Translations under genes and position numbers: made by a program
Shown: one piece after another, positions 50,976 through 64,000 of the stretch
Layout: each line of letters begins with the position of its first letter
Position numbering within the stretch: position 1 is the stretch's first letter
NCBI RefSeq assembly: GCF_018882335.1
Contig: NZ_JACVOS010000007.1
Span: forward strand, 62,001 to 126,000
Direction of reading: 5' to 3'
Source of the DNA: Polynucleobacter sp. AM-25C3
Lineage (GTDB): Bacteria > Pseudomonadota > Gammaproteobacteria > Burkholderiales > Burkholderiaceae
DNA: 64,000 nt
Notes under the pieces: model-generated
Told to the model about the DNA's origin: nothing
The model's input: only the letters and a program-made list of their open reading frames with translations
Databases searched by the model: none

Positions 50976-51668
50976 CTATCTAGATTGCTCAATAGTTTGC
51001 CCATCTCTAATAGCGTAAATTCGCTTAAATAGAGGGATAATTTTTTCATCATGGGTAACCACAATAATTGCAGTCTGATATTGGCTGGCCATTTGATTTA
51101 AGATCCCCATCACTCCTAAGGCTCTTTCGCTATCTAAAGGAGCTGTCGGTTCGTCGGCTAAAATCACTGGGGGTCTATTTGCCAAAGCCCTTGCAATGGA
51201 AACTCGTTGTTGCTCACCCCCAGATAATTCTGATGGGTTAGCATTCGCCCGATGCGCAACATCTAAAGCTTCTAGTAACTCCTTAGCCCTCGCTCTAGCA
51301 ATATTGTTTGGCACCCCCGCAAGCATAGGTAAAAGCGCCACGTTATCCGTCACGTTCAGAAAGGGAATTAAGTAAGGCGCTTGAAAAATAAAGCCAATTT
51401 TGTCTCTTCTCAGAGCCCTTAAGTCCTTAATCTTCCAACCATTCTCGTAGATCACTTCACCACCCAAAGTCATGCGACCTGCTGTGGGCTCAATGACTGC
51501 TCCTAGACATTTCAGTAGCGTACTTTTTCCAGACCCAGATGGGCCTATAAGCCCAACCACTTCACCAGGAGCAATTTGCATGTTGACATTTTTTAGGGCA
51601 TCTACAGCAGCATCACCATGTCCGTAAGTTTTTCGAAGTCCCTCTAATTGAATACTGTATGTACTCAT
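50976..51668 (-). CDS. ABC transporter ATP-binding protein (DevA/MacB-like)
   Basis: A 230-residue ATPase. Walker A GLIGPSGSGKSTLLKCLG near residue 40, Q-loop FIFQAPYLIPFLNV, signature ELSGGEQQRVSIARALANRP, Walker B VILADEPTAPLDSE and the switch His in VVTHDEK. The short form with HlyD-like and FtsX-type partners places it in the DevA/LolD/MacB group of exporter ATPases. It starts one base after the permease stop. Energy source for the exporter encoded by 51670-54014; the cargo is unknown. Confidence 0.92.
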   Translation of the reverse strand: MSTYSIQLEGLRKTYGHGDAAVDALKNVNMQIAPGEVVGLIGPSGSGKSTLLKCLGAVIEPTAGRMTLGGEVIYENGWKIKDLRALRRDKIGFIFQAPYLIPFLNVTDNVALLPMLAGVPNNIARARAKELLEALDVAHRANANPSELSGGEQQRVSIARALANRPPVILADEPTAPLDSERALGVMGILNQMASQYQTAIIVVTHDEKIIPLFKRIYAIRDGQTIEQSR

Positions 51669-51669
51669 A

Positions 51670-52860
51670 TCAGCCCCCTATCGCTTGGGCAGGATCTACT
51701 AGCAATGCAGTCCTGATCGCCAAGGTACTAGCTAAAGCGCATATGACCATCACTAAAATGAATCCGATGACTGCATCTATCGGCTCCAATAAAACATATT
51801 TTGGAAACAGCGGCGCCCAAAAAGTAGCTGAAGTTTTTCCCACAATAAACCCGATTAAACCCAATCCAAGGGCTTGTTGCAAGATCATGCTAGCAATAGT
51901 GCTATTTTGAGTGCCAATCAATTTCAACACGGCAATCTCCCTAATCTTTCCTAGGGTCATGGTGTAGATAATGAAAGCCACAATGGCAGCGCTTACTACC
52001 GCCAAGATCACTAGAAACATACCAATCTGTTTTGCGGAATTTGCGATCAACTTAGCAACAAGGATTTCTTCCATCTGCGCCCTTGTATACACCTCAAGAT
52101 GTTTCCAGCGACGGATTGGTTTAGCCACCTCCTCCGGAGTTCTTCCCCCTTGGATTTGAACAAGGATGGCATTCACGCTGTGATTGGTAGATTGCGATGC
52201 TGTAATGGCATCCAATAAGCCAGGAATGGGGCGATTCAAACTCGGATTAGCTATATTTCTGGCGCGATCATTCAGAATCGCATCGTTGTCCTTTAGAAAT
52301 TGCGCCTCTTGTGCGTCTTTAATTGGAATGAATACCATTGGATCGCCACCCGATGAGACCATACGGCGAGTTAAACCCACTACCCGATACTGATGGCGCT
52401 TAATTTGAATGAGGTCGTTTAGCTCAAACCCCGTTTTAACATCCGCCAATGCTTCATAGTGTGACTGAACAATATGTCGACCGGAAATCAAATAAGCCGG
52501 CTCACCAAGCTGCCCACTTTCTACCCCAACCACCATGACTCTAGTATCACTCTGCCCTTTACGAACCTGCATTGTGAGATAGGTGATGTTAGCTGCGCGT
52601 GCAACGCCCGGCATCCCCAACACGCCTCTTACATAGTCATCTCGAATGCTGGATGCTTCAGCATAAGGGCCTTGGGTATCTTTTTGTACCACCCAAAGAT
52701 CTGCACCGCTATTGTTTAGTAGGGCCATGGCATCATCCACCATGCCTCGATATACCCCTGCCATTGTTAGAGTGACACCGATTAGCAGTCCGAGGCCCAA
52801 TCCCGTTAGAGCAAACTTACCCCAAGAATGCGCAATGTCACGACCCGCTAGGCTAATCAC
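51670..52860 (-). CDS. ABC transporter permease (DevC/FtsX-like, GTG start)
   Basis: A 396-residue permease with an N-terminal helix (about 14-32), a large periplasmic domain (about 40-270) and three C-terminal helices (about 275-300, 325-345 and 360-385), the MacB/FtsX topology. GKIREIAVLKLIGTQNSTIASMIL is the coupling segment typical of DevC. It starts with a GTG whose GTGA overlaps the TGA of the adaptor gene. In cyanobacteria, DevBCA exports glycolipids; the substrate here is not known. Confidence 0.9.
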   Translation of the reverse strand: MISLAGRDIAHSWGKFALTGLGLGLLIGVTLTMAGVYRGMVDDAMALLNNSGADLWVVQKDTQGPYAEASSIRDDYVRGVLGMPGVARAANITYLTMQVRKGQSDTRVMVVGVESGQLGEPAYLISGRHIVQSHYEALADVKTGFELNDLIQIKRHQYRVVGLTRRMVSSGGDPMVFIPIKDAQEAQFLKDNDAILNDRARNIANPSLNRPIPGLLDAITASQSTNHSVNAILVQIQGGRTPEEVAKPIRRWKHLEVYTRAQMEEILVAKLIANSAKQIGMFLVILAVVSAAIVAFIIYTMTLGKIREIAVLKLIGTQNSTIASMILQQALGLGLIGFIVGKTSATFWAPLFPKYVLLEPIDAVIGFILVMVICALASTLAIRTALLVDPAQAIGG

Positions 52861-54014
52861 GGCGTTTTCTTCAATAAAGAATCAACTACCTTAATACGCT
52901 GCCCTTCTTTAATTTCAGCATCGCTATAGAGAACAACTTCATCACCACTCTTAAGTCCACTCAGAATAACCACTTGACCATTTAAGCCGTTTTGTCCAAC
53001 TTGTACTCGAGCAAAGTAGGGCTTGCCATCTTTGAGCACCCATACCCCAGTTTCATCACCCCTCTTTTTAATGCTTGCATTGGGCAAGCTAAGGCCATAT
53101 TCACTGGGGGCTAATTGCAATGTCACTTCTGCCATCTCCCCAACTGAAACAGTCTTGGGCATATCTATCATTTCAATTTGGGCAATGCGTTCTTCCGCAA
53201 CACTATCACTGAGCATCTCAACGCGAACTACCTTGCCCGAGATTGGGTGATGTGGATTAGAGCGCAATATCACATTTGCATCTAAGCCAACGGCTAATCC
53301 CATTGACTTACCTTGGTCAAAACGCGTCTTAATCCATAGGCTCGTTGGGTCGATTAATTTTAAAACCGCCTGACCAGCAATAACAGTTGAGCCTGGCTCG
53401 GCATCTCTAGATGTAATGATCCCATCTACTGGAGCCCTTAATTTAATATTAAGCTCTTGTTGTTTAAGCCCAGCCAAATCAGCAGTTGTTTTTTGAACAA
53501 TCGCTTTTGCTGAATTGAGTTCCTGTGACTTGCCTTCAACAACAATTGGGCTAATAAAATTTTTCTTTCCCAACTCCACATATCGCTTGTACGTTTCAGA
53601 AGCCAGCAGTAAGCGTGCCTTTGCATCAGTCACTTGTGCCTGAGCAGCAATCATTCTCTGATTCAGATCAATAGAATCCATCTCGGCAAGTAGTTGACCC
53701 TCTTTAACCAAATTGCCTACATCTACATATACGTTTGAAACGCGTCCAGCAACTACTGGTCCCATCAAATATGACCGCCTCGCTTCAATTGTTCCCACTC
53801 CAAATAGTGTGGGTGCAAGCGATTGATCGCTAACTTTAATAGTCGTCACTTTTGTGGACGCTAAAGGCCCAGAATTTAGAACAACAAATCCAAATACGAC
53901 TAATAAAAATGTAAGCGTGAGACCCATCAGTAATTGACGGCGGGTAATGTTCAATTCACGCATTCGGAGTAGAAGCGAACTTAAGAGTTCTTTTAATTTA
54001 ATTGTGGTATTCAT
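52857..54014 (-). CDS. HlyD-family periplasmic adaptor of the ABC exporter (DevB-like)
   Basis: A 385-residue membrane fusion protein. A single membrane helix lies at about 27-48. LMGPVVAGRVSNVYVDVGNLVKEGQLLAEMD is the lipoyl half-motif, an alpha-helical hairpin follows (about 115-180), then the second lipoyl half (LRAPVDGIITSRDAEPGSTV) and beta-barrel segments. With the permease and ATPase it forms a tripartite exporter that would recruit an outer-membrane channel encoded elsewhere. It is the first gene of the set; a perfect TTGACA at 54102-54097 upstream may be its -35, but the -10 is poor. Confidence 0.9.
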   Translation of the reverse strand: MNTTIKLKELLSSLLLRMRELNITRRQLLMGLTLTFLLVVFGFVVLNSGPLASTKVTTIKVSDQSLAPTLFGVGTIEARRSYLMGPVVAGRVSNVYVDVGNLVKEGQLLAEMDSIDLNQRMIAAQAQVTDAKARLLLASETYKRYVELGKKNFISPIVVEGKSQELNSAKAIVQKTTADLAGLKQQELNIKLRAPVDGIITSRDAEPGSTVIAGQAVLKLIDPTSLWIKTRFDQGKSMGLAVGLDANVILRSNPHHPISGKVVRVEMLSDSVAEERIAQIEMIDMPKTVSVGEMAEVTLQLAPSEYGLSLPNASIKKRGDETGVWVLKDGKPYFARVQVGQNGLNGQVVILSGLKSGDEVVLYSDAEIKEGQRIKVVDSLLKKTP

Positions 54015-54522
54015 ATTTGAATCTAGGTTTATATTTTGCGAACCATCAATAAACTTAAGTGAACGAGATGTGTCCCTTAATGATGCTCCTTTTGGTTGTC
54101 AAATAGCGATTTAATTACCCATCTCACAGGAGATCAACTCAATCAAAGTTAACTCTCGCTTTTTGTCTACTTTGCTTTTTCTTGGATCATTATTCATTAT
54201 ATTTTAAGATATAATGAATAATGATCTTCAGGCAGCAAAAAAATTAAATAAACTAAAAATGCATTATTTGTACCCGAAGATAAATCCAAAAAACACAACA
54301 TTGATAATAAGAATTCAATGGCCAATATGTGATCGCTTAATCTAGCAATAGCTGTCCTTCTATTGTAGATTTGGGTATTTGCGAAGTCTTTTGAAGCTTA
54401 AACCTTAGTCAAAGCAACGCCTAGATAAATAACCCAACTAAATTTAAAGGTTCTCGTAGTTTAATTTCAGATTGGAGATTTTGCATTTTCAAGTGTATCG
54501 ATTAATGCCTCCAAAAAAGAAA
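54015..54522. other. AT-rich intergenic region (508 nt) upstream of the ABC exporter
   Basis: No protein gene seen. It contains the possible exporter promoter (TTGACA at 54102-54097, minus strand), tandem TTGAT units near 54132-54147, and the perfect 18-bp inverted repeat at 54185-54226. 54227-54522 is strongly AT-rich, with only short frames. The low GC compared with the flanking genes suggests acquired or decayed DNA. Confidence 0.55.
54185..54226. repeat. Perfect 18-bp inverted repeat with 6-nt loop
   Basis: Arms 54185-54202 (GATCATTATTCATTATAT) and 54209-54226 are exact reverse complements around TTTAAG. There is no GC clamp and no T-run after it in either direction, so it is unlike an intrinsic terminator. 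It lies 170 nt upstream of the exporter adaptor gene. A regulator-binding palindrome, or a structure tied to an old mobile element, are the main options. Confidence 0.8.
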
Positions 54523-54738
54523 TTAATCCTCAAAAATATTAGGAATTCCATTTAATAAAATTTTTTTTGAACTTGATACTGACTCATCCAGATCAGACTC
54601 TATAATTTTCCTAAAATTAGTGCAATTATCTCTATGCACACACTCAGACAGAGTTTGATGCTTTTTACGATCGTTATATGCCGTGCAATGATCGCGAGTC
54701 CAGCTTCCGTCCAACGGGCAAGAATCTTTCTTTCCCAT
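54523..54738 (-). CDS. Small Cys-rich protein, unknown function
   Basis: 71 residues from the ATG at 54738, with four Cys (7, 18, 33, 39) and three His (17, 27, 35) in the first 40 residues and an acidic tail. The Cys/His spacing suggests metal binding or disulfides, but no family is recognised. The start at residue 5 of the longer GTG-started frame is preferred because it is an ATG with GGGGGTG about 5 nt ahead. It has no signal peptide or membrane segment. It lies between the HPP gene and the AT-rich gap on the same strand as the nar genes. It is short, so coding status is uncertain. Confidence 0.45.
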   Translation of the reverse strand: MGKKDSCPLDGSWTRDHCTAYNDRKKHQTLSECVHRDNCTNFRKIIESDLDESVSSSKKILLNGIPNIFED

Positions 54739-54833: not shown

Positions 54834-55382
54834 TTAACCCTGTTTGCTAAGTTCCTTAATCGGGTAGGGTTTCTTGGTTAATTTTCCGTACAGATATGCA
54901 GCGGCAACCAGGACTAACGAGTCCGCAAAAATAGGATAGATCGCAAAGTAATAGCTACTAATATTTCCAGCGGCGATAAACATTGCCAGTAATAAAGCTG
55001 TTGGGCTAAAGCACTTTAAACTATACATAGCTAAAGCTGAAGCGACAACCGCTGCTGGCATTCCCACAAATGGCGAAGGGAAGATAGAGACGCTGGCTGC
55101 AGCCAATAATGCAGAAACCACGTTGCCTTCGATAATTGCCTTAGGATGAAACATCGGGCTAGATGGCATTAGAAAAATCATCAGCGCCATCACCAAAAAA
55201 GCAGCATTGATAGGCACCGCTTGCTCAGTTGTGCCAACTAGCTCATTAAACATGATGACAGCAATAATCAGTACATCTACCCCAAAGCAAATCCTAAGGA
55301 TTTCTAGCCAAGAAAATCCATAAGGATCGGGCGGAATATACTTTTTAAGTCTAGATAGATAGTTTTCCCAACGATTACTCAT
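54834..55382 (-). CDS. HPP-family membrane protein, possible nitrite transporter
   Basis: A 182-residue protein with about five membrane segments (about 30-48, 56-72, 85-105, 108-135 and 140-165). FLMPSSPMFHPKAIIEGNVVSALL is the core of the HPP family, named after the HPP residues seen here in modified form. An HPP protein of plant chloroplasts transports nitrite, so with the nar genes upstream a role in nitrite movement is plausible, but that is inference. It is the last strongly supported gene of the probable nar transcript. Confidence 0.75.
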   Translation of the reverse strand: MSNRWENYLSRLKKYIPPDPYGFSWLEILRICFGVDVLIIAVIMFNELVGTTEQAVPINAAFLVMALMIFLMPSSPMFHPKAIIEGNVVSALLAAASVSIFPSPFVGMPAAVVASALAMYSLKCFSPTALLLAMFIAAGNISSYYFAIYPIFADSLVLVAAAYLYGKLTKKPYPIKELSKQG

Positions 55383-55450
55383 ATCTTATAGAATTTAGCA
55401 GAAATCAATATTCAATCCATGTTTCTTTAGGCTATTAATTAATTAGGCGC

Positions 55451-56041
55451 TTAGAATTCCAATGTAGACACAAATTCAGAAGGGATCATACGTGGCTTTG
55501 GAGGGGTGGATCTATCTGGCGTACCTATATTAATAAAACATAATGGATCCTCGTAATCTTGAAGGCCAAATAGCTCCCTTACCGGCTTCATATACATTGA
55601 TTTACCACTTGTTGGGCTTGCACCAAACCCCATAGCATGGGAAATTAAAAAGATGTTCTGTATGGCACATCCAGCGGAAATGATTCGTTCGCTAGGTGGA
55701 ACTTCTGAATCCGTACCTCTAGCATTCACAATTGCTAGCATTACCAAAGGTGCTCTATGGGCTTTCACCATGGCGTCCTGAACTTGTTGCTCAGTTGCAC
55801 CCGGGTCCCGCTCAAGCAATGATTTTGCAAAGGCGTCCGCTAATAATCCCCTGCACTCAAGAGGGCAGATAACAAAACGCCACGGACGAGTCAAATTATG
55901 ATCAGGCGCCGTCGCAGCCATCGAAAAAATACTTTCCAATTGCTCTGGGGTAGGCCCAGGCTGAAATAGCCTTTTAGGCAAAAATGATTGTCTTGAGCTA
56001 ATTAATGCTGCCGCCATTTCTGCAGTCTGGTTATTCGACAT
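55451..56041 (-). CDS. Nitroreductase-family flavoprotein
   Basis: A 196-residue protein from the ATG at 56041. It has SSRQSFLPKRLFQP (an R-R-S-like FMN phosphate contact), APDHNLTRPWRFVI, SAGCAIQNIFLISHAMGFGASPTSGKSM and GTPDRSTPPKPR. The family reduces nitro compounds, quinones or flavins with NAD(P)H; the substrate is not readable. The frame extends 20 codons upstream into the carbonic anhydrase gene. GGAG lies 9 nt before 56041, so I chose that start; it overlaps the carbonic anhydrase by 11 nt. Confidence 0.85.
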   Translation of the reverse strand: MSNNQTAEMAAALISSRQSFLPKRLFQPGPTPEQLESIFSMAATAPDHNLTRPWRFVICPLECRGLLADAFAKSLLERDPGATEQQVQDAMVKAHRAPLVMLAIVNARGTDSEVPPSERIISAGCAIQNIFLISHAMGFGASPTSGKSMYMKPVRELFGLQDYEDPLCFINIGTPDRSTPPKPRMIPSEFVSTLEF

Positions 56042-56711
56042 GTTTTGGATCTCCATCAAAATGATCATCAGCGTAAGGCCCGGTTCCGCAGCTATCTGCA
56101 TGGTGCGCCGGGATAAACTTTCCTTCAGTTACATCAAATACCTGCACTTCACCCTCTTCAATTACGTAATACCAACCGTGAAGGGTTAACTCCTTGTTTT
56201 CAACTTGTGAGCGAACCATTGGGTATTCCATTAAACGTTCTAGCTGCAAGATGACTGAGCGTTGCTCCACCCTTCGGAGTGCCTCAGGGGTTTGGCAGAC
56301 CGGCAAAAGTGCCTCATCAATTAATTCAAGCCAAGCACTTAAATTAATCGCCTCTTCTGGCACCCCTTCATAAGCTGACCTGACTGCCCCACAATGACTA
56401 TGTCCACATACAACAATTCGACTAACATTAAGTTGCATTACTGCAAATTCAATTCCTGCAGCCGTCCCATGAATACCATAGGAACCATCGTAAGGTGGAA
56501 CAATGGCGCCTACATTGCGCAAAATAAACAAGTCTCCAGGCCCCGTTCCGGTAAGTAAATATGGAACAATTCTGGAATCAGAACAACCTAAAAATAAGGT
56601 TTTAGGTGTCTGCCCATTTTGAATAAGGCTTGTAAATTCTTGGCGATGCGCCGGGAAATATTCTGTCCGAAATTTGCGCAGTCGATCTAATAACTCATCT
56701 GGCATCGTCAA
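56031..56711 (-). CDS. Beta-class carbonic anhydrase
   Basis: A 226-residue protein with the zinc/dyad motif CSDSR (near residues 43-47) and HSHCGAV (near 103-109), giving the Cys, Asp/Arg, His and Cys of a beta-carbonic anhydrase. GDLFILRNVGAIVPP and TAAGIEFAVMQL are typical. It interconverts CO2 and bicarbonate in the cytosol. It lies 13 nt after narI, so it is probably translated from the nar message, an uncommon neighbour for nitrate reductase. Confidence 0.93.
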   Translation of the reverse strand: MTMPDELLDRLRKFRTEYFPAHRQEFTSLIQNGQTPKTLFLGCSDSRIVPYLLTGTGPGDLFILRNVGAIVPPYDGSYGIHGTAAGIEFAVMQLNVSRIVVCGHSHCGAVRSAYEGVPEEAINLSAWLELIDEALLPVCQTPEALRRVEQRSVILQLERLMEYPMVRSQVENKELTLHGWYYVIEEGEVQVFDVTEGKFIPAHHADSCGTGPYADDHFDGDPKHVE

Positions 56712-56724
56712 TTGCTCTCATCGT

Positions 56725-57426
56725 TTACTTACGACCCATACCGAATTTTCTACTACGTACAATTTGATATGGTCTTACCAGATAGGTGATGGATGCAAAC
56801 CCACTCCAAATATGAACAAGTCGGGTAAATGGAAAGATTAAGAAAATTGTCATTCCTAAGAACATGTGCAATTTAAATACCCAATCTACCCCACTTAATA
56901 ACTCAACAGCTCCACCACGTAAGGTGACTATATGTTGAGCCCAGCCTGCCAGCTTCATCATGACCGAACCATCTAAATGTTGGCCAGATAGAGGAATGGT
57001 TGCTAAACCGAGCAATAACTGCAACCAGAGCACTACAACAATCAAAATATCACTTGGCTTTGAAGTAATACGGATTCGATCGTCGGTCAAACGTCTATGT
57101 AAAAGAATGGTTAATCCAATAAATCCAAATACGCCAGCGATGCCACCACTTGCCATTGCCATAACCTGCTTTTGACCGGCCGTAATAAATGGCTCATACA
57201 AGAAATGTGGTGTCAGCATGCCAAAGAAGTGGCCAAAGAATAAAAAGAGCACGCCAATATGAAAGAAGATGCTGCCTATGCGCAATTGTTTCTTACGTAA
57301 TAATTGGCTTGAGTCGCTTTTCCAGGTGTACTGATCCCTATCAAACCGAATAAGACTTCCTACAAAAAATACCGCAAGGCAAATATAAGGATAAATTCCA
57401 AAAATAAATGTATCTAGATAGCTCAT
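56725..57426 (-). CDS. narI: Respiratory nitrate reductase gamma subunit (cytochrome b)
   Basis: A 233-residue integral membrane protein with five helices. The heme-ligand histidines are visible in FFHIGVLFLFFGHFFGML (helix 2) and FKLHMFLGMTIFLIFPFTRLVHIWSG (helix 5). It takes electrons from quinol and passes them through two b-hemes to NarH. Length is near the E. coli 225. It overlaps narJ by 4 nt. Confidence 0.96.
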   Translation of the reverse strand: MSYLDTFIFGIYPYICLAVFFVGSLIRFDRDQYTWKSDSSQLLRKKQLRIGSIFFHIGVLFLFFGHFFGMLTPHFLYEPFITAGQKQVMAMASGGIAGVFGFIGLTILLHRRLTDDRIRITSKPSDILIVVVLWLQLLLGLATIPLSGQHLDGSVMMKLAGWAQHIVTLRGGAVELLSGVDWVFKLHMFLGMTIFLIFPFTRLVHIWSGFASITYLVRPYQIVRSRKFGMGRK

Positions 57427-58103
57427 GGCTGAACTCCTTTGAACTCTTTCGCACGTTTGACAAATTGAAGCGGTTGCTCTTCACCGGGTTTGGATTGGCC
57501 ACGGGTTGAGCATCCGCCAAATGCTGGAGGCTCTGCCCACTCTTCATCCATAGACTCTTCCTCAATCTTCAATTCAACAATTTTGAATTTTTCACCGGAG
57601 AACTCTATAGCTGCAGCTATCAACCATGCGTAACGGTTGTTACGAGCAACTAAAGTGGAGTAGACGGCATTCAAGATATGGGCCATTTCCCCAATAAATT
57701 GCCTGGACTGATCTAAGGGTAGTGTTGAGGCAAACTCGAGAATTACCGACAAGTGATCGGGAAGCTCATTAGCGCTTAACTCTAAACCACCATCTTTATA
57801 AGTTTGAAGTAAGTCAACCATAGCTTGACCGCGCTCACGAGAGTCTCCATGAACATGCTCAAACAAGTGCAGGGATGTCGCCCTACCTCGATCAAAGCAC
57901 TCTACATATTCTTCCTGCAGGTCATACAAATCTGCAGATTCCAGGTGGTTAACAAAATCAACTAGACCGGCATAAACCTTTTTAGTGAGCTTTGGCATTG
58001 CCAATAGCGCACTAGTCACTTCGGCTGAATGCTGAATAATCTCTGCATCTGGATACTGAAGAAATCTAGAAAGCGCTCGTAATGGTAGTGAATGTTTCAT
58101 CAT
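57423..58103 (-). CDS. narJ: Nitrate reductase assembly chaperone NarJ
   Basis: A 226-residue, mostly helical TorD/NarJ-type protein. LRALSRFLQYPDAEI, LQEEYVECFDRGRATSLHLFEHVHGDSRERGQAM and LPDHLSVILEFAS are the conserved landmarks. It binds apo-NarG and guides molybdenum cofactor insertion; it is not part of the mature enzyme. The C-terminal 40 residues are acidic and variable. Overlaps narI by 4 nt and lies 5 nt after narH. Confidence 0.95.
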   Translation of the reverse strand: MMKHSLPLRALSRFLQYPDAEIIQHSAEVTSALLAMPKLTKKVYAGLVDFVNHLESADLYDLQEEYVECFDRGRATSLHLFEHVHGDSRERGQAMVDLLQTYKDGGLELSANELPDHLSVILEFASTLPLDQSRQFIGEMAHILNAVYSTLVARNNRYAWLIAAAIEFSGEKFKIVELKIEEESMDEEWAEPPAFGGCSTRGQSKPGEEQPLQFVKRAKEFKGVQP

Positions 58104-58108
58104 TTCTC

Positions 58109-59632
58109 CTAAACAGCCGGCTTAATTGGAATGGTGCGACGCTTAGTACCGCCGAAGAGACTTGCTTCAGAGTCGCCATCAGAGCATCCGTTTCCAAAAG
58201 TAAAGCCGCAACTTCCCTTCATATCGAATGTATTTTCTGCATACTCACGATGCGATGTTGGAATGACAAAACGATCTTCATAGTTAGCAATCGCCATGGT
58301 CTGATACATATCTTCCACCTGATCTTCGGAGATGCCAGCCTGTTTCAATGCCTCTAGATTGCGTGTGCCATCCACATGCTTATCTCGCTGCCATGCCCTC
58401 ATTGCCAACATTTTTTCTAAGGCGGATATCACCGGAGCCTCATCTCCAGCAGTTAACATATTGGCTAAATATTGCACCGGAATACGTAACTGCTTCACAT
58501 CTGGAATATGGCCATTTACTCCGACATAACCAGCCTCCACTGCCCCAGTAACCGGGGAAAGTGGTGGAACATACCAAACCATTGGAAGCGTTCTATATTC
58601 TGGATGAAGTGGTAATGCAATTTTCCAATCCATCGCCATTTTGTATACAGGGCTCTTTTTGGCAGACTCCACCCAAGATGGAGGCACGCCGTCAGCTAAA
58701 GCTTGTTTCTGTACTTCTGGATCATTTGGATCCAAAAATACCTTCAACTGTGCTTTATATAAATCTTTTTCGCTCTCAACGCTGGCAGCGCTTTCAATTT
58801 GGTCGGCATCGTAAAGCATGACACCTAAATAACGGATACGGCCAACACAGGTTTCCGAACAGACTGTTGGTTGACCCGCCTCAATACGTGGATAGCAGAA
58901 AATGCATTTCTCTGCTTTACCGCTTTTCCAGTTGTAATAAATCTTTTTGTACGGACATGCAGAGACGCACATACGCCATCCACGGCATTTATCCTGGTCA
59001 ATTAAAACAATCCCATCCTCTTCACGCTTGTAAATAGAACCTGATGGACAAGATGCAACGCAAGCAGGGTTCAAACAATGCTCACACAGACGTGGCATAT
59101 ACATCATGAATGTATTTTCGAACTGTCCCCATACGTCTTTTTGCATTTGATCAAAGTTGGAGTCTTTACTACGTTTTGCGAACTCACCACCAAGAATTTC
59201 TTCCCAGTTTGGGCCCCACTCTATCTTCTCCATGCGCTTGCCAGTGATTAAGCTTCTTGGGCGAGCAGTCGGAGTGGCCTTAGATTCGGGAGCGCTTTGT
59301 AAATGCTCATAGTCAAATGTAAATGGTTCGTAGTAATCGTCTATTTCTGGCAAATTAGGGTTGCCAAATAAGTTCATCCAAATCTTGGACCTACCACCTT
59401 GTTTAGGCTCAATCTTGCCATTGCTTTTACGCTTCCAGCCACCCTTCCACTTCTCTTGATCTTCCCAATTTTTTGGGTAACCGATTCCTGGTTTTGTTTC
59501 AACGTTATTAAACCAGGCGTACTCCATCCCTGGACGATTCGTCCAAACCTGCTTGCAAGTAACGGAGCATGTGTGACAGCCGATACATTTATCCAGATTT
59601 AAGACCATGCCAATTTGTGCGCGAATTTTCAT
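58109..59632 (-). CDS. narH: Respiratory nitrate reductase beta subunit
   Basis: A 507-residue electron-transfer subunit with four cysteine groups: CIGCHTCSVTCKQVW near residue 16, CEHCLNPACVASCPSG, CRGWRMCVSACPYKK and CIFCYPRIEAGQPTVCSETC. The Trp in CRGWRMC replaces a Cys and marks the 3Fe-4S cluster, as in E. coli NarH; the other three are 4Fe-4S. It carries electrons from NarI to NarG. Length matches E. coli (512). It lies 12 nt after narG. Confidence 0.97.
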   Translation of the reverse strand: MKIRAQIGMVLNLDKCIGCHTCSVTCKQVWTNRPGMEYAWFNNVETKPGIGYPKNWEDQEKWKGGWKRKSNGKIEPKQGGRSKIWMNLFGNPNLPEIDDYYEPFTFDYEHLQSAPESKATPTARPRSLITGKRMEKIEWGPNWEEILGGEFAKRSKDSNFDQMQKDVWGQFENTFMMYMPRLCEHCLNPACVASCPSGSIYKREEDGIVLIDQDKCRGWRMCVSACPYKKIYYNWKSGKAEKCIFCYPRIEAGQPTVCSETCVGRIRYLGVMLYDADQIESAASVESEKDLYKAQLKVFLDPNDPEVQKQALADGVPPSWVESAKKSPVYKMAMDWKIALPLHPEYRTLPMVWYVPPLSPVTGAVEAGYVGVNGHIPDVKQLRIPVQYLANMLTAGDEAPVISALEKMLAMRAWQRDKHVDGTRNLEALKQAGISEDQVEDMYQTMAIANYEDRFVIPTSHREYAENTFDMKGSCGFTFGNGCSDGDSEASLFGGTKRRTIPIKPAV

Positions 59633-59644
59633 CTATTTTCTCCG

Positions 59645-62600
59645 TTACGCTTGAACTGTGTTGGCATTTTCACTATCAAGCCAATCAATATTTCGCATCT
59701 TCCGAACTGTCACAAACTCATCTCGGTTAGTTCCAATCGTTCCGTAGTAATTAAATCCATAACTAAGTTGCGCATAACCACCAATCATGTGTGTGGGCTT
59801 AAGAACAATCCGCGTTACCGAGTTATGAATACCACCGCGCATACCAGTAATCTCAGATCCTGGCGTATTGATGATCTTCTCTTGAGCGTGATACATCATG
59901 ACCATTCCTGGATTTACCCTTTGGCTCACGACAGCTCTCGCTGCTATTGCTCCATTGGCGTTATATAGCTCAACCCAATCGTTATCCACAATACCAGCTT
60001 TAACCGCATCATCTTCACTCAACCAAACGACTGGTCCACCACGATTCAGAGTCAGCATCATCAAGTTATCGCTATAGGTGGAATGAATGCCCCACTTTTG
60101 ATGCGGCGTAATGAAGTTCAAAACAATTTCTTTATTTCCATTAGGCTTAATGCCCTTGACCTCAATAATGGTCTTTAAATCTACCGGCGGTCTATAAGAA
60201 ACAAATCCTTCGCCAAATGCCCGCATCCATTTGTGATCCTGATAGAACTGTTGACGGCCAGTCAATGTTCTCCAAGGAATGTACTCATGAACGTTTGTAT
60301 AACAAGCGTTATAAGAAACTTTTTCACTCTCCAGTCCAGACCAAGTTGGCGAACTGATGATCTTTCTTGGCTGCGCCTGAATATCACGGAAACGAATCTT
60401 CTCATCCTCGCGATGCAAAGCTAAATGCGCATGCTCAAGGCCCGTGATTTTGGATAATGCATCCCAAGCCTTGACTGCTACATGACCATTTGTCTCAGGA
60501 GCAAGCATTAATACAACCTCAGCAGCATCAATATCCGTTGAGATTTTTGCCATCCCCTTCATCTCGCCATGCTCAACACGACCATTGAGCTCCCGCAACT
60601 GCTCCACTTCAACCTTGGTATCCCAAGCAATACCCTTCCCGCCGTTTCCAACCTTGTCCATGAGCGGACCTAAGGCCGTAAAGCGGTTATAAGTATTTGG
60701 ATAGTCACGCTCTACTACGGCAATTTGAGGCGCAGTTTTTCCGGGTATGAGATCGCACTCACCTTTCTTCCATTCCTGCACATCAAATGCCTGAGCTAAT
60801 TCAGCGGGCGTGTCGTGCATTAAGGGAGTCATCACAATCTCTTTTTCAACACCCAGATGACCTACGCACACCTCTGAAAACTTTTTCGCAAATCCTTTAT
60901 AGATATCCCAATCACTACGAGCCTCCCAAGCGGGGTCAACGGCTGTAGATAACGGATGGATAAATGGATGCATGTCGCTAGTATTAAGGTCATTCTTCTC
61001 ATACCAAGTAGCAGTAGGTAGAACAATGTCGGAATACAAACAGGTAGTACTCATCCGAAAATCTAAGGTCACTAATAAATCAAGCTTGCCTTCAGGCGCC
61101 TTATCATGCCACTCGACTTCAGAAGGTCTTGCCTCATCAGCTCCAAGATCCTTGCCCTGAACACCGTGACTTGTTCCCAGTAGGTGTTTTAAAAAATACT
61201 CGTGCCCTTTTCCTGAGGATCCTAAAATATTAGATCTCCATACGAACATATTTCGCGGCCAATTGCTTGGATGATCTGGGTCCTCGCAACTCATTTGTAA
61301 TGTTCCAGACTTCAAGCCATCAACAACATATTTCTTAGGATCTTTACCTGCAGCAAGAGCCTCTTTTACAACCTCAAGGGGATTTGTCTTTAACTGGGGA
61401 GCTGATGGCAACCAACCCATCCGCTCTGCACGGACGTTAAAGTCAATCATGCTGCCCGTGTACTCCTCTTTATTTGCTAGGGGCGATAACACCTCCTCCA
61501 TACCAAGTTTTTCATAGCGCCATTGATCGGTATGCGCATAAAAGAAACTGGTAGAGTTTTGCTGACGCGGTGGACGAATCCAATCCAGTGCAAAAGCCAG
61601 GGGGGTCCAACCAGTTTGTGGGCGCAATTTTTCTTGACCTACATAGTGAGCCCAGCCACCACCGCTCTGGCCGATACAGCCACACATCATTAACATATTG
61701 ATGATGCCGCGGTAATTCATATCACAGTGATACCAATGATTCATCGCAGCGCCAATAATGACCATTGACTTGCCTTTAGTCTTTTCTGCATTTTCTGCAA
61801 ATTGACGAGCCACTGTGATTACTTGCTCACGCTTTACTCCGGTAATGGATTCTTGCCATGCTGGAGTATAAGGACCATTGTCATCATAAGATTTGGCGCA
61901 CTCACCACCTAATCCACGGTCAATTCCATAATTACCTGCCAATAAGTCAAAAACTGTTGCTACAAATACTTCTTTTTCAACGCCATTCTCAGTAAGAATA
62001 ATTTTCTTAGCAGGTATATTCTGAACAAGAACATCACTTTGCTTATTTGCATCAAAATATGGTGTATCAATACCACCAAAGTATGGGAATCCAACGGGGA
62101 CAACATCATGTATTGACTGATCCTCCATTAGTGATAACTTCAATTTCACATCATTACCGTAATTAGCTTCTTTTGATTCTAGATTCCATTTACCCTGGTC
62201 TTTACGTCCCTCCGGACCCCATCTAAATCCAATGGACCCATTCGGTACTACCGGCTTGCCAGCCGTATCGAATGCAACCGTTTTCCAGTCGGCGCCATTA
62301 GTCTGGCCAAGCTTGCCATCAAAATCGCTTGAACGCGCATAGCGTCCAGGAACCAATACTTTTCTGCCGTCATCCAATACTTTTTCTTCCAGCATCACCA
62401 GATTTGGCATATCTGTATAGCGACGTACGTAATCATCAAAATACTCAGTGCGCTTATTGAAATAAAACTCTTTCAGAATGACATGCCCCATGGCCATCGC
62501 AATCGCAGCATCTGTACCCTGCTTAGGGTGCATCCAAATGTCTGCTAATTTAGAAATTTCGGCATAGTCCGGAGTGATTGCCACCGTTTTAGCACCCTTA

Positions 62601-63418
62601 TATCTCACCTCGGTAAAAAAGTGCGCATCGGGAGTACGTGTTTGAGGGACGTTAGAGCCCCATGCAATGATGAAAGTAGAGTTATACCAATCAGCGGATT
62701 CCGGCACATCGGTTTGCTCACCCCATACCTGGGGGCTAGCTGGCGGCAAATCACAATACCAATCGTAAAAGCTCATGCATACGCCACCGATTAGACTTAA
62801 GTAACGCGATCCAGCTGCATAACTCACCATTGACATTGCTGGGATCGGAGAGAAGCCAATAATCCGATCGGGTCCATGCTTTTTAATCGTATAGACATTC
62901 GCTGCGGCAATGATTTCATTTACCTCATCCCACGAACTGCGAACGAAACCACCCTTACCCCGTAACTCCATCCACTCTTTGCGCTTAGCAGTGTTTTCAA
63001 CTAAATTTGCCCAAGCATCTACCGGAGATTTGGCGACCGACTTTGCTTCACGCCACTGCTTTAGCAGTCGGCCGCGGATCATTGGATACTTCACGCGATT
63101 GGCACTGTACATGTACCAGCTGTAGCTCGCGCCGCGTGCACAACCCCGAGGCTCGTGATTAGGCAGGTCAGGTCTAGTGCGCGGGTAATCAGTTTGCTGA
63201 GTTTCCCAAGTAACAATGCCGCCTTTGACATAAATTTTCCAAGAACATGATCCCGTGCAATTGGTACCATGCGTTGAACGTACGATCTTATCGTGCTGCC
63301 AGCGCGAACGATAAGCGTCTTCCCACGTGCGGTCTTCTCCGACCGTCACACCATGGCCATCTGAAAACTCTTCTTTATCTGCAGATAAAAACTTGAGGCG
63401 ATCTAAAAAGTGACTCAT
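59645..63418 (-). CDS. narG: Respiratory nitrate reductase alpha subunit (Mo-bisMGD)
   Basis: A 1257-residue catalytic subunit, close to the E. coli 1247. The FS0 4Fe-4S cluster ligands H50, C54, C58 and C93 lie in HGTNCTGSCSW and RGCARGAS. SFYDWYCDLPPASPQ carries the molybdenum-ligand Asp region, followed by AWGSNVPQTRTPDAHF. No twin-Arg export signal is visible, agreeing with the cytoplasm-facing Nar type rather than periplasmic Nap. It reduces nitrate to nitrite with quinol electrons. It is intact, with no frameshift, and 20 nt after narK. Confidence 0.98.
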   Translation of the reverse strand: MSHFLDRLKFLSADKEEFSDGHGVTVGEDRTWEDAYRSRWQHDKIVRSTHGTNCTGSCSWKIYVKGGIVTWETQQTDYPRTRPDLPNHEPRGCARGASYSWYMYSANRVKYPMIRGRLLKQWREAKSVAKSPVDAWANLVENTAKRKEWMELRGKGGFVRSSWDEVNEIIAAANVYTIKKHGPDRIIGFSPIPAMSMVSYAAGSRYLSLIGGVCMSFYDWYCDLPPASPQVWGEQTDVPESADWYNSTFIIAWGSNVPQTRTPDAHFFTEVRYKGAKTVAITPDYAEISKLADIWMHPKQGTDAAIAMAMGHVILKEFYFNKRTEYFDDYVRRYTDMPNLVMLEEKVLDDGRKVLVPGRYARSSDFDGKLGQTNGADWKTVAFDTAGKPVVPNGSIGFRWGPEGRKDQGKWNLESKEANYGNDVKLKLSLMEDQSIHDVVPVGFPYFGGIDTPYFDANKQSDVLVQNIPAKKIILTENGVEKEVFVATVFDLLAGNYGIDRGLGGECAKSYDDNGPYTPAWQESITGVKREQVITVARQFAENAEKTKGKSMVIIGAAMNHWYHCDMNYRGIINMLMMCGCIGQSGGGWAHYVGQEKLRPQTGWTPLAFALDWIRPPRQQNSTSFFYAHTDQWRYEKLGMEEVLSPLANKEEYTGSMIDFNVRAERMGWLPSAPQLKTNPLEVVKEALAAGKDPKKYVVDGLKSGTLQMSCEDPDHPSNWPRNMFVWRSNILGSSGKGHEYFLKHLLGTSHGVQGKDLGADEARPSEVEWHDKAPEGKLDLLVTLDFRMSTTCLYSDIVLPTATWYEKNDLNTSDMHPFIHPLSTAVDPAWEARSDWDIYKGFAKKFSEVCVGHLGVEKEIVMTPLMHDTPAELAQAFDVQEWKKGECDLIPGKTAPQIAVVERDYPNTYNRFTALGPLMDKVGNGGKGIAWDTKVEVEQLRELNGRVEHGEMKGMAKISTDIDAAEVVLMLAPETNGHVAVKAWDALSKITGLEHAHLALHREDEKIRFRDIQAQPRKIISSPTWSGLESEKVSYNACYTNVHEYIPWRTLTGRQQFYQDHKWMRAFGEGFVSYRPPVDLKTIIEVKGIKPNGNKEIVLNFITPHQKWGIHSTYSDNLMMLTLNRGGPVVWLSEDDAVKAGIVDNDWVELYNANGAIAARAVVSQRVNPGMVMMYHAQEKIINTPGSEITGMRGGIHNSVTRIVLKPTHMIGGYAQLSYGFNYYGTIGTNRDEFVTVRKMRNIDWLDSENANTVQA

Positions 63419-63438: not shown

Positions 63439-64000
63439 TTAGCAAGGCATTGGTGCGTTCTTACGGCTGTAATACCACCAGGTAATGAACGTACAGGTAA
63501 CGTAAAAAACAATGAACGAGTACAGGGCAGCTTCAGGACCGCCTGTAGCAGCAATAGAACTTCCATAACTCTTGGGAATGAAGAATCCTCCGTAAGCACC
63601 TACTGCAGAACTAAAACCGAGCACTGCTGCAGCTTCTTTATTGGCATCACGAATTGCTTGGTCCTTGTCAGCCTGAGTATTGCCAGCGGCACGTTGACGC
63701 TCTGTCAAAAAAATGACCGGGATCATGCGGAAAGTTGATCCATTGCCAACACCAGATGTGGCGAAAAGTAACATAAAGGCAAACAAGAATCCATAGAACT
63801 CGCCTCCAACACCTCTCATTGGCAAGAAATGGAGGACTGCAAATACACCAGCACCCATTGCAATGAAGTTCCAGAAGGTAACTCTGGCGCCACCTAGCTT
63901 ATCGGCTAGCCATCCACCTATAGGCCTTGCTAATGCACCAACCAATGGTCCAAGCCATGCATAACTAAGCGCATTAACGCCAGGAAATTGGCTCTTAATC
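63439..64000 (-). CDS. narK: Nitrate/nitrite MFS transporter NarK, C-terminal part (cut by window edge)
   Basis: 187 residues reaching the right edge. The frame is open back to 64000 and reads LSYAWLGPLVGALARPIGGWLADKLGGARVTFWNF, which contains the MFS loop motif (RPIGGWLADKLGG) characteristic of NarK. GNGSTFRMIPVIF and GFSSAVGAYGGFFIPKSYG are the second nitrate-signature region. It moves nitrate in and nitrite out across the inner membrane. The N-terminal part, the promoter and any FNR/NarL sites are outside the window. Confidence 0.93.
   Translation of the reverse strand, partial: IKSQFPGVNALSYAWLGPLVGALARPIGGWLADKLGGARVTFWNFIAMGAGVFAVLHFLPMRGVGGEFYGFLFAFMLLFATSGVGNGSTFRMIPVIFLTERQRAAGNTQADKDQAIRDANKEAAAVLGFSSAVGAYGGFFIPKSYGSSIAATGGPEAALYSFIVFYVTCTFITWWYYSRKNAPMPC

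Follow-up and report, generated by a model that had tools for sequence, protein, structure and literature searches.

The stretch of DNA analyzed here, referred to as the window, comprises 64,000 nucleotides (nt) of Polynucleobacter sp. AM-25C3 (contig NZ_JACVOS010000007.1, positions 62,001 to 126,000), the genome of which spans 2.1 Mb in 56 contigs and was rated 100% complete. On the minus strand, this genome carries a nitrate reductase (nar) operon, which runs in the order narK1-narK2-narG-narH-narJ-narI and probably continues into a tail of four genes encoding a carbonic anhydrase (CA), a nitroreductase (NTR), a membrane protein with a TM_HPP domain (HPP) and a small protein with four cysteines (Cys4). 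The direct coupling of CA to NTR, the HPP with a changed motif and the small Cys4 gene are new features of such a tail and were seen only in Polynucleobacter; no publication describing narGHJI with this tail was found in the open-licence literature searched. Coordinates below are those of the window, and L- and G-numbers denote other stretches and genomes that were compared. The genes are as follows:

63439..63999, minus strand: narK2, 3′ part (the window end cuts the gene); TIGR00886, 344.7 bits, cut-off 311.7; whole gene at L037:9440-10822, 460 amino acids (aa)
59645..63418, minus strand: narG, nitrate reductase alpha subunit; 1257 aa; TIGR01580
58109..59632, minus strand: narH, beta subunit; 507 aa; TIGR01660
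57423..58103, minus strand: narJ, assembly chaperone; 226 aa; TIGR00684
56725..57426, minus strand: narI, gamma subunit; 233 aa; TIGR00351
56031..56705, minus strand: beta-carbonic anhydrase; 224 aa; 19 nt after narI; motifs CSDSR and HSHC
55451..56041, minus strand: YdjA-type nitroreductase; 196 aa; 11-nt overlap with CA
54834..55382, minus strand: TM_HPP membrane protein; 182 aa; 68 nt after NTR; HPP motif lost
54523..54738, minus strand: small Cys4 protein; 71 aa; 95 nt after HPP

The open reading frames (ORFs) from narG to HPP lie on the minus strand where a sequence-only reading of the window had placed them, and narG, narH, narJ and narI, each scoring above its NCBIfam cut-off, follow one another as in a narGHJI operon. 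The Pro_CA, Nitroreductase and TM_HPP domains all exceeded their Pfam cut-offs in the window proteins. The same reading had overlooked narK2 and narK1, which precede narG in the same direction with gaps of 20 and 24 nt (NarK2 scores above and NarK1 below the TIGR00886 cut-off), as well as the 71-aa Cys4 ORF, which starts 95 nt past the HPP stop behind a G-rich stretch. Its 68-nt gap between NTR and HPP was correct, and its 13-nt gap between narI and CA holds with a TTG start (56711) but becomes 19 nt with the ATG at 56705; in the 17 Polynucleobacter nar loci that contain CA, the matching ATG of this gene sits 13 to 19 nt past narI. The overlap of CA and NTR was real, but the NTR start found in relatives is 56041, giving 11 nt, and not the 56101 of the longest ORF. 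The tail contains 5 promoter-like sites against a mean of 10.1 in shuffled sequences and 2 terminator-like sites against 3.2. Since these counts show no excess over the shuffles, separate promoters or terminators inside the tail found no support, and the recurrence of gene order and overlaps in relatives further argues that CA, NTR and HPP are, as had been proposed, very probably transcribed together with nar.

The gene for narI was present in 20 of 186 Polynucleobacter genomes, and all 20 nar loci were read; one contig (G701) ends inside CA, hence 19 loci were readable downstream. CA was found at 17 of the 20 loci (once partially) and NTR at all 19 readable ones, while HPP was present at 11 and the small Cys4 gene adjoined nar at 14 of these 19. 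Five named Polynucleobacter contigs showed the same gene order, with an HPP 97 to 100% identical to that of the window. The CA and NTR genes overlapped in all 16 loci in which both are complete (by 11 nt in 12, by 7 nt in 3 and by a few nt in 1), which is more than chance. At the nar loci of G600, G746 and G684, which have no CA, NTR follows narI after 32 to 35 nt. Among the pairs of tail genes that were scored, the ratio of nonsynonymous to synonymous substitution rates (dN/dS) was well below 1, except in pairs with one to three changes in total. Collectively, the linkage that the sequence-only reading had suggested looking for in other nar-carrying genomes recurs within Polynucleobacter.

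To place the tail within the order Burkholderiales, we searched 399 genomes and found narI at E ≤ 1e-20 in 131, our own included. The nar regions of 71 of the other 130 genomes were read, namely 11 found via CA and a further 60 from the 119 left, made up of the 40 with the best scores and 20 spread over the rest of the list; this set is not random, and 9 of the 71 regions have less than 6 kb after narI. Tail genes were counted by tblastn, and counts from ORF profiles were set aside because overlapping frames hide genes there. A peptidyl-prolyl isomerase (PPIase) gene was present in 42 of the 60 regions from the narI list, CA in 7, and NTR and HPP in none; six of these seven CAs share only 35 to 41% identity with the queries and may represent another subfamily. 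The 11 regions found via CA all contained both PPIase and CA, and NTR occurred in 2 and HPP in none of them, which brings the non-Polynucleobacter nar regions read to 2 of 71 with NTR and 0 of 71 with HPP. A close CA (E ≤ 1e-50) was found in 14 non-Polynucleobacter genomes, 11 of which have the order narI-PPIase-CA; among the other three, CA is accompanied by narK on a short contig in one and by a weak match to NnrS in another, and the third shows none of these arrangements.

The order narGHJI-PPIase-CA was also found on annotated plasmids of Variovorax boronicumulans, Aquabacterium olei and Ideonella dechloratans (narJ is not in the gene table of the last). These plasmids resemble the window in that narGHJI is followed by a CA, which is 65 to 70% identical to that of the window. 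They differ in the PPIase gene between narI and CA: no PPIase match was found in the Polynucleobacter nar loci, only the 19-nt gap separates narI from a CA of the nar-linked subfamily in the window, and this CA overlaps NTR. Furthermore, neither HPP nor the small Cys4 gene was found on the plasmids, whereas both are present in the window, and the V. boronicumulans plasmid carries NrdJ, NnrS and NTR further downstream, whereas NrdJ and NnrS lie upstream in the window genome. CA behind narI is therefore an arrangement of an already known type in the order, though a minority one. The claim that the extension is not part of the classic unit holds for Escherichia coli, the narGHJI unit of which to our knowledge lacks a CA-NTR-HPP extension, but it does not extend to other Burkholderiales, where CA stands behind narI, usually after PPIase. 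The simplest reading of these comparisons would be that a Burkholderiales nar island lost PPIase, came to carry NrdJ and NnrS on its other side and had CA and NTR joined, with the direction of change presumed, while HPP and the small gene seem to have been added within Polynucleobacter.

The HPP protein of the window scored 60 bits against the TM_HPP domain (Pfam cut-off 27.2). In 9 of 9 distinct nar-linked HPPs, LHPPAAA is replaced by FSPTALL or FQPTALM and AQPW by FHPK; among 31 other HPP sequences, 30 retain the HPP motif and 29 retain AQPW. A tree of 40 sequences united the nar-linked proteins in a single group (96/98) that sits on a long branch; the bootstrap of this tree had not settled, and several further rows in it are very long-branched. 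The dN/dS of HPP was 0.06 to 0.30, and its identity between groups was 64 to 68%, compared with 86 to 96% for CA and NTR. By sequence, no credible solved relative was found, and a fold model from the single sequence reached a predicted local distance difference test score (pLDDT) of 50.8. HPP proteins of cyanobacteria and chloroplasts are reported to carry nitrite (Maeda 2014, as cited in the available parts of PMC7438415 and PMC4137279). The window protein shares the TM_HPP domain with those transporters; what sets the nar-linked clade apart is its long branch and the missing HPP motif, and the reported nitrite transport belongs to other branches. A role of HPP as an anion exporter is plausible. 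A gene for a SLAC1/TehA-type anion channel, another candidate anion route, lies past the window end at L037:14806-15771, flanked by the NarX-like gene and NrdJ and encoded on the opposite strand.

Of 186 Polynucleobacter genomes, 23 carry the small Cys4 gene, namely 17 of the 20 genomes with narI versus 6 of the 166 others (Fisher p = 2e-16, uncorrected for kinship). Fourteen of these 17 copies adjoin nar, one (G701) falls at the contig end and two (G600 and G684) lie elsewhere. Because 14 of the 17 copies are adjacent, the strong co-occurrence with narI mostly reflects linkage, and a co-occurrence independent of linkage was unsupported, as 6 genomes also carry the gene without narI. In three Polynucleobacter nar loci without HPP, the small gene lies 182 to 195 nt after NTR. 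The four cysteines are invariant in 10 aligned, chosen members, from which G707 (first cysteine missing) and the more diverged G603 and G705 were left out; they are thus not invariant family-wide, given that G707 is without the first cysteine. The dN/dS was 0.06 to 0.21 in six computable pairs, two further pairs having saturated dS and two being unchanged. The small protein had no match in Pfam (E up to 10) or in PHROGs or NCBIfam (E up to 1), and its fold model from the single sequence reached a pLDDT of 54.2. Among 300 genomes of the order, the window genome included, the sole other match (G251, E 3.9e-4) contains one internal stop and was judged to be due to chance. Copies of the gene away from nar, some of them diverged, were observed in other Polynucleobacter genomes (L194, L195, L197, L198, L199 and L200-L202).

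For NTR, which passed the Nitroreductase cut-off of Pfam, the nearest solved chain is YdjA; the score against the YdjA-type model of NCBIfam was 81.9, below the cut-off of 183. Relatives were found in 67 plasmid records, six of which were opened, one of these being unannotated. Those in the annotated ones are 32 to 46% identical to the window NTR and lie beside arsenite oxidase genes in Hydrogenophaga (46%) and Pseudosulfitobacter (32%), behind cytochrome c maturation genes in Sphaerotilus and in Vitreoscilla (there with nap genes near), and next to NnrS in Variovorax. According to PMC3834237, As(III) oxidation in Acidovorax NO1 was delayed when nitR was disrupted. The window NTR resembles the nitR and aoxC genes of arsenite oxidase islands, as described in the parts of PMC3834237 and PMC2848651 available, in its family and in its position beside a respiratory molybdoenzyme; it differs in standing beside nar and not aio, and the aio-linked plasmid genes are not equated here with the published nitR. 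The neighbors of the relatives, together with the nitR report as far as it is accessible, suggest that NTR assists respiratory molybdoenzymes as an accessory and is less likely to be an enzyme of nitrosative stress. The proposal that it deals with nitrosative by-products was weakened accordingly, arsenite oxidase genes yielding no nitrogen oxides.

Beta-carbonic anhydrases carry the zinc and catalytic motifs C-x-D-x-R and H-x-x-C, which CSDSR and HSHC of the window CA fit; the protein contains a Pro_CA domain, and its nearest solved relative is 5swc. That CA stands beside Nar as a supply of protons or bicarbonate is an ordinary guess.

We then examined which enzymes of the window genome could consume nitrite. 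The best match to NirB scored 168.4 bits against a cut-off of 578.35, and no match to NrfA was found in this genome. A candidate NirK (56.1 against a cut-off of 296.3) proved to be a multicopper oxidase, and a cytochrome d1 match, although above its cut-off with 47.9, belongs to a protein that scores far better as a YncE-like propeller. Nitrite export is favored by this combination of NirB and NirK matches below cut-off, absence of NrfA and a d1-type match that is a propeller.

Genes for NarL-like and NarX/NarQ-like regulators, both below NCBIfam cut-offs, lie 5′ of narK1 and narK2 in the same direction, and still further 5′, ahead of the regulators, come NnrS, a nitronate-monooxygenase-family gene and NrdJ. 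Past the NnrS end of the nar island and beyond the window end, the window genome carries a Tn7-like set (TnsA-like, Mu-type transposase and TniB-like; L214:5389-9099). The genes flanking nar vary among relatives, which, together with the Tn7-like set, fits mobility. About 0.5 kb past the tail and on the same strand, HlyD-type, FtsX/MacB-type and ABC ATPase genes occupy positions 50976-54014; close relatives retain them, and Polynucleobacter nar loci that are more distant do not. An AT-rich inverted repeat of two 21-nt arms without a spacer, 95% complementary, occupies 54185-54226 in the interval from the small gene to the HlyD-type gene and was also found, with changes, in 7 near relatives examined. 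In another Polynucleobacter genome, a phage-integrase-family gene (L096:17447-18655) lies downstream of the nar tail.

We consider it fairly probable, from gene content and order, that the whole set, with CA, NTR, HPP and the small gene, constitutes one nitrate respiration operon and that most of the nitrite formed must leave the cell. NarGHI reduces nitrate at the cytoplasmic face. With at most the siroheme reductase described below consuming nitrite, most of it would exit the cell; NarK2 would exchange nitrite for nitrate, and HPP would most likely let nitrite or some other small anion out by a second route or act as a balancing pore for it. NTR may be a flavin oxidoreductase that is accessory to respiratory molybdoenzymes, to judge by the neighbors of its relatives and the nitR report, and CA may speed the exchange of CO2, bicarbonate and protons in the cytoplasm, where Nar uses protons. 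As comparison shows, CA and NTR are related to genes in the tail narI-PPIase-CA...NrdJ-NnrS-NTR of other Burkholderiales. A more specific version, in which a repurposed HPP (AQPW to FHPK, LHPPAAA to F[SQ]PTAL) specializes in the export of nitrite made by Nar and the Cys4 family, observed so far in this genus only, acts in nitrate respiration as a helper or sensor that binds a metal or Fe-S, is put forward as a tentative and rather doubtful idea.

Several observations weigh against the operon as a functional whole with nitrite leaving the cell. CA is missing from 3 of the 20 Polynucleobacter nar loci and HPP from 8 of the 19 readable ones, and of the 60 narI-list regions just 7 contain CA and none contains NTR. 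Among the 19 other nar-bearing Polynucleobacter genomes, 7 are without any HPP match genome-wide, namely G600 and G684 (99% complete) and G632, G701, G704, G717 and G746 (77 to 94%); the sole match in G700 is weak and broken, and the sole copy in G587 is unlinked. Because these seven show no HPP, Nar does not depend on it. The loss of the family motif in the window protein and its clade also counts here, and the sequence-only proposal of HPP as a nitrite transporter, made plausible by the reports on HPP proteins elsewhere in the articles cited above, is tempered by this loss and by the dispensability of HPP. Finally, the window genome (G000) encodes on its contig 7 a siroheme reductase of 568 aa, the best models of which, NirA and ferredoxin-nitrite reductase, remained below their cut-offs; as a nitrite/sulfite-type enzyme, it could possibly use nitrite inside the cell.

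The variable membership of the tail (CA at 17/20, HPP at 11/19 and the small gene at 14/19 loci) would also fit a different account, in which low-oxygen genes were gathered by island building and are co-regulated with Nar without a direct part in nitrate reduction. NTR relatives adjoining differing respiratory enzymes, the presence of NrdJ, NnrS and the nitronate-monooxygenase-family gene in the same neighborhood and the Tn7-like genes beyond the island point the same way, but the CA-NTR overlap kept in all 16 loci and the nar linkage of the close CA subfamily in most genomes having it do not, and we regard this account as possible but not likely. HPP and the small gene could instead form a separate transcription unit that was inserted behind CA-NTR and is unrelated to nitrate. 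The spacer ahead of HPP is longer (68 nt in the window, approximately 40 nt in a sister group), HPP diverges faster than CA and NTR, and the small gene stays without HPP in three loci; yet no minus-strand promoter-like site was found between NTR and HPP, and in all 11 loci that have HPP it is flanked by NTR and the small gene. A separate unit of this kind appears improbable.

The reading as one nitrate respiration operon bears on a genus for which a 2012 genome study of one Polynucleobacter strain described nitrate respiration, in the part of the text available, as 'unsupported by the annotation' (PMC3308952). CA and, more rarely, NTR are companions of Nar in Burkholderiales, so that their roles become testable. 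In this common freshwater genus, two apparent additions at the genus level stand out, namely HPP proteins forming a clade devoid of the HPP motif and an orphan protein with four cysteines. If HPP does export nitrite, this would bear on the hand-over of nitrite to neighboring cells in low-oxygen water.

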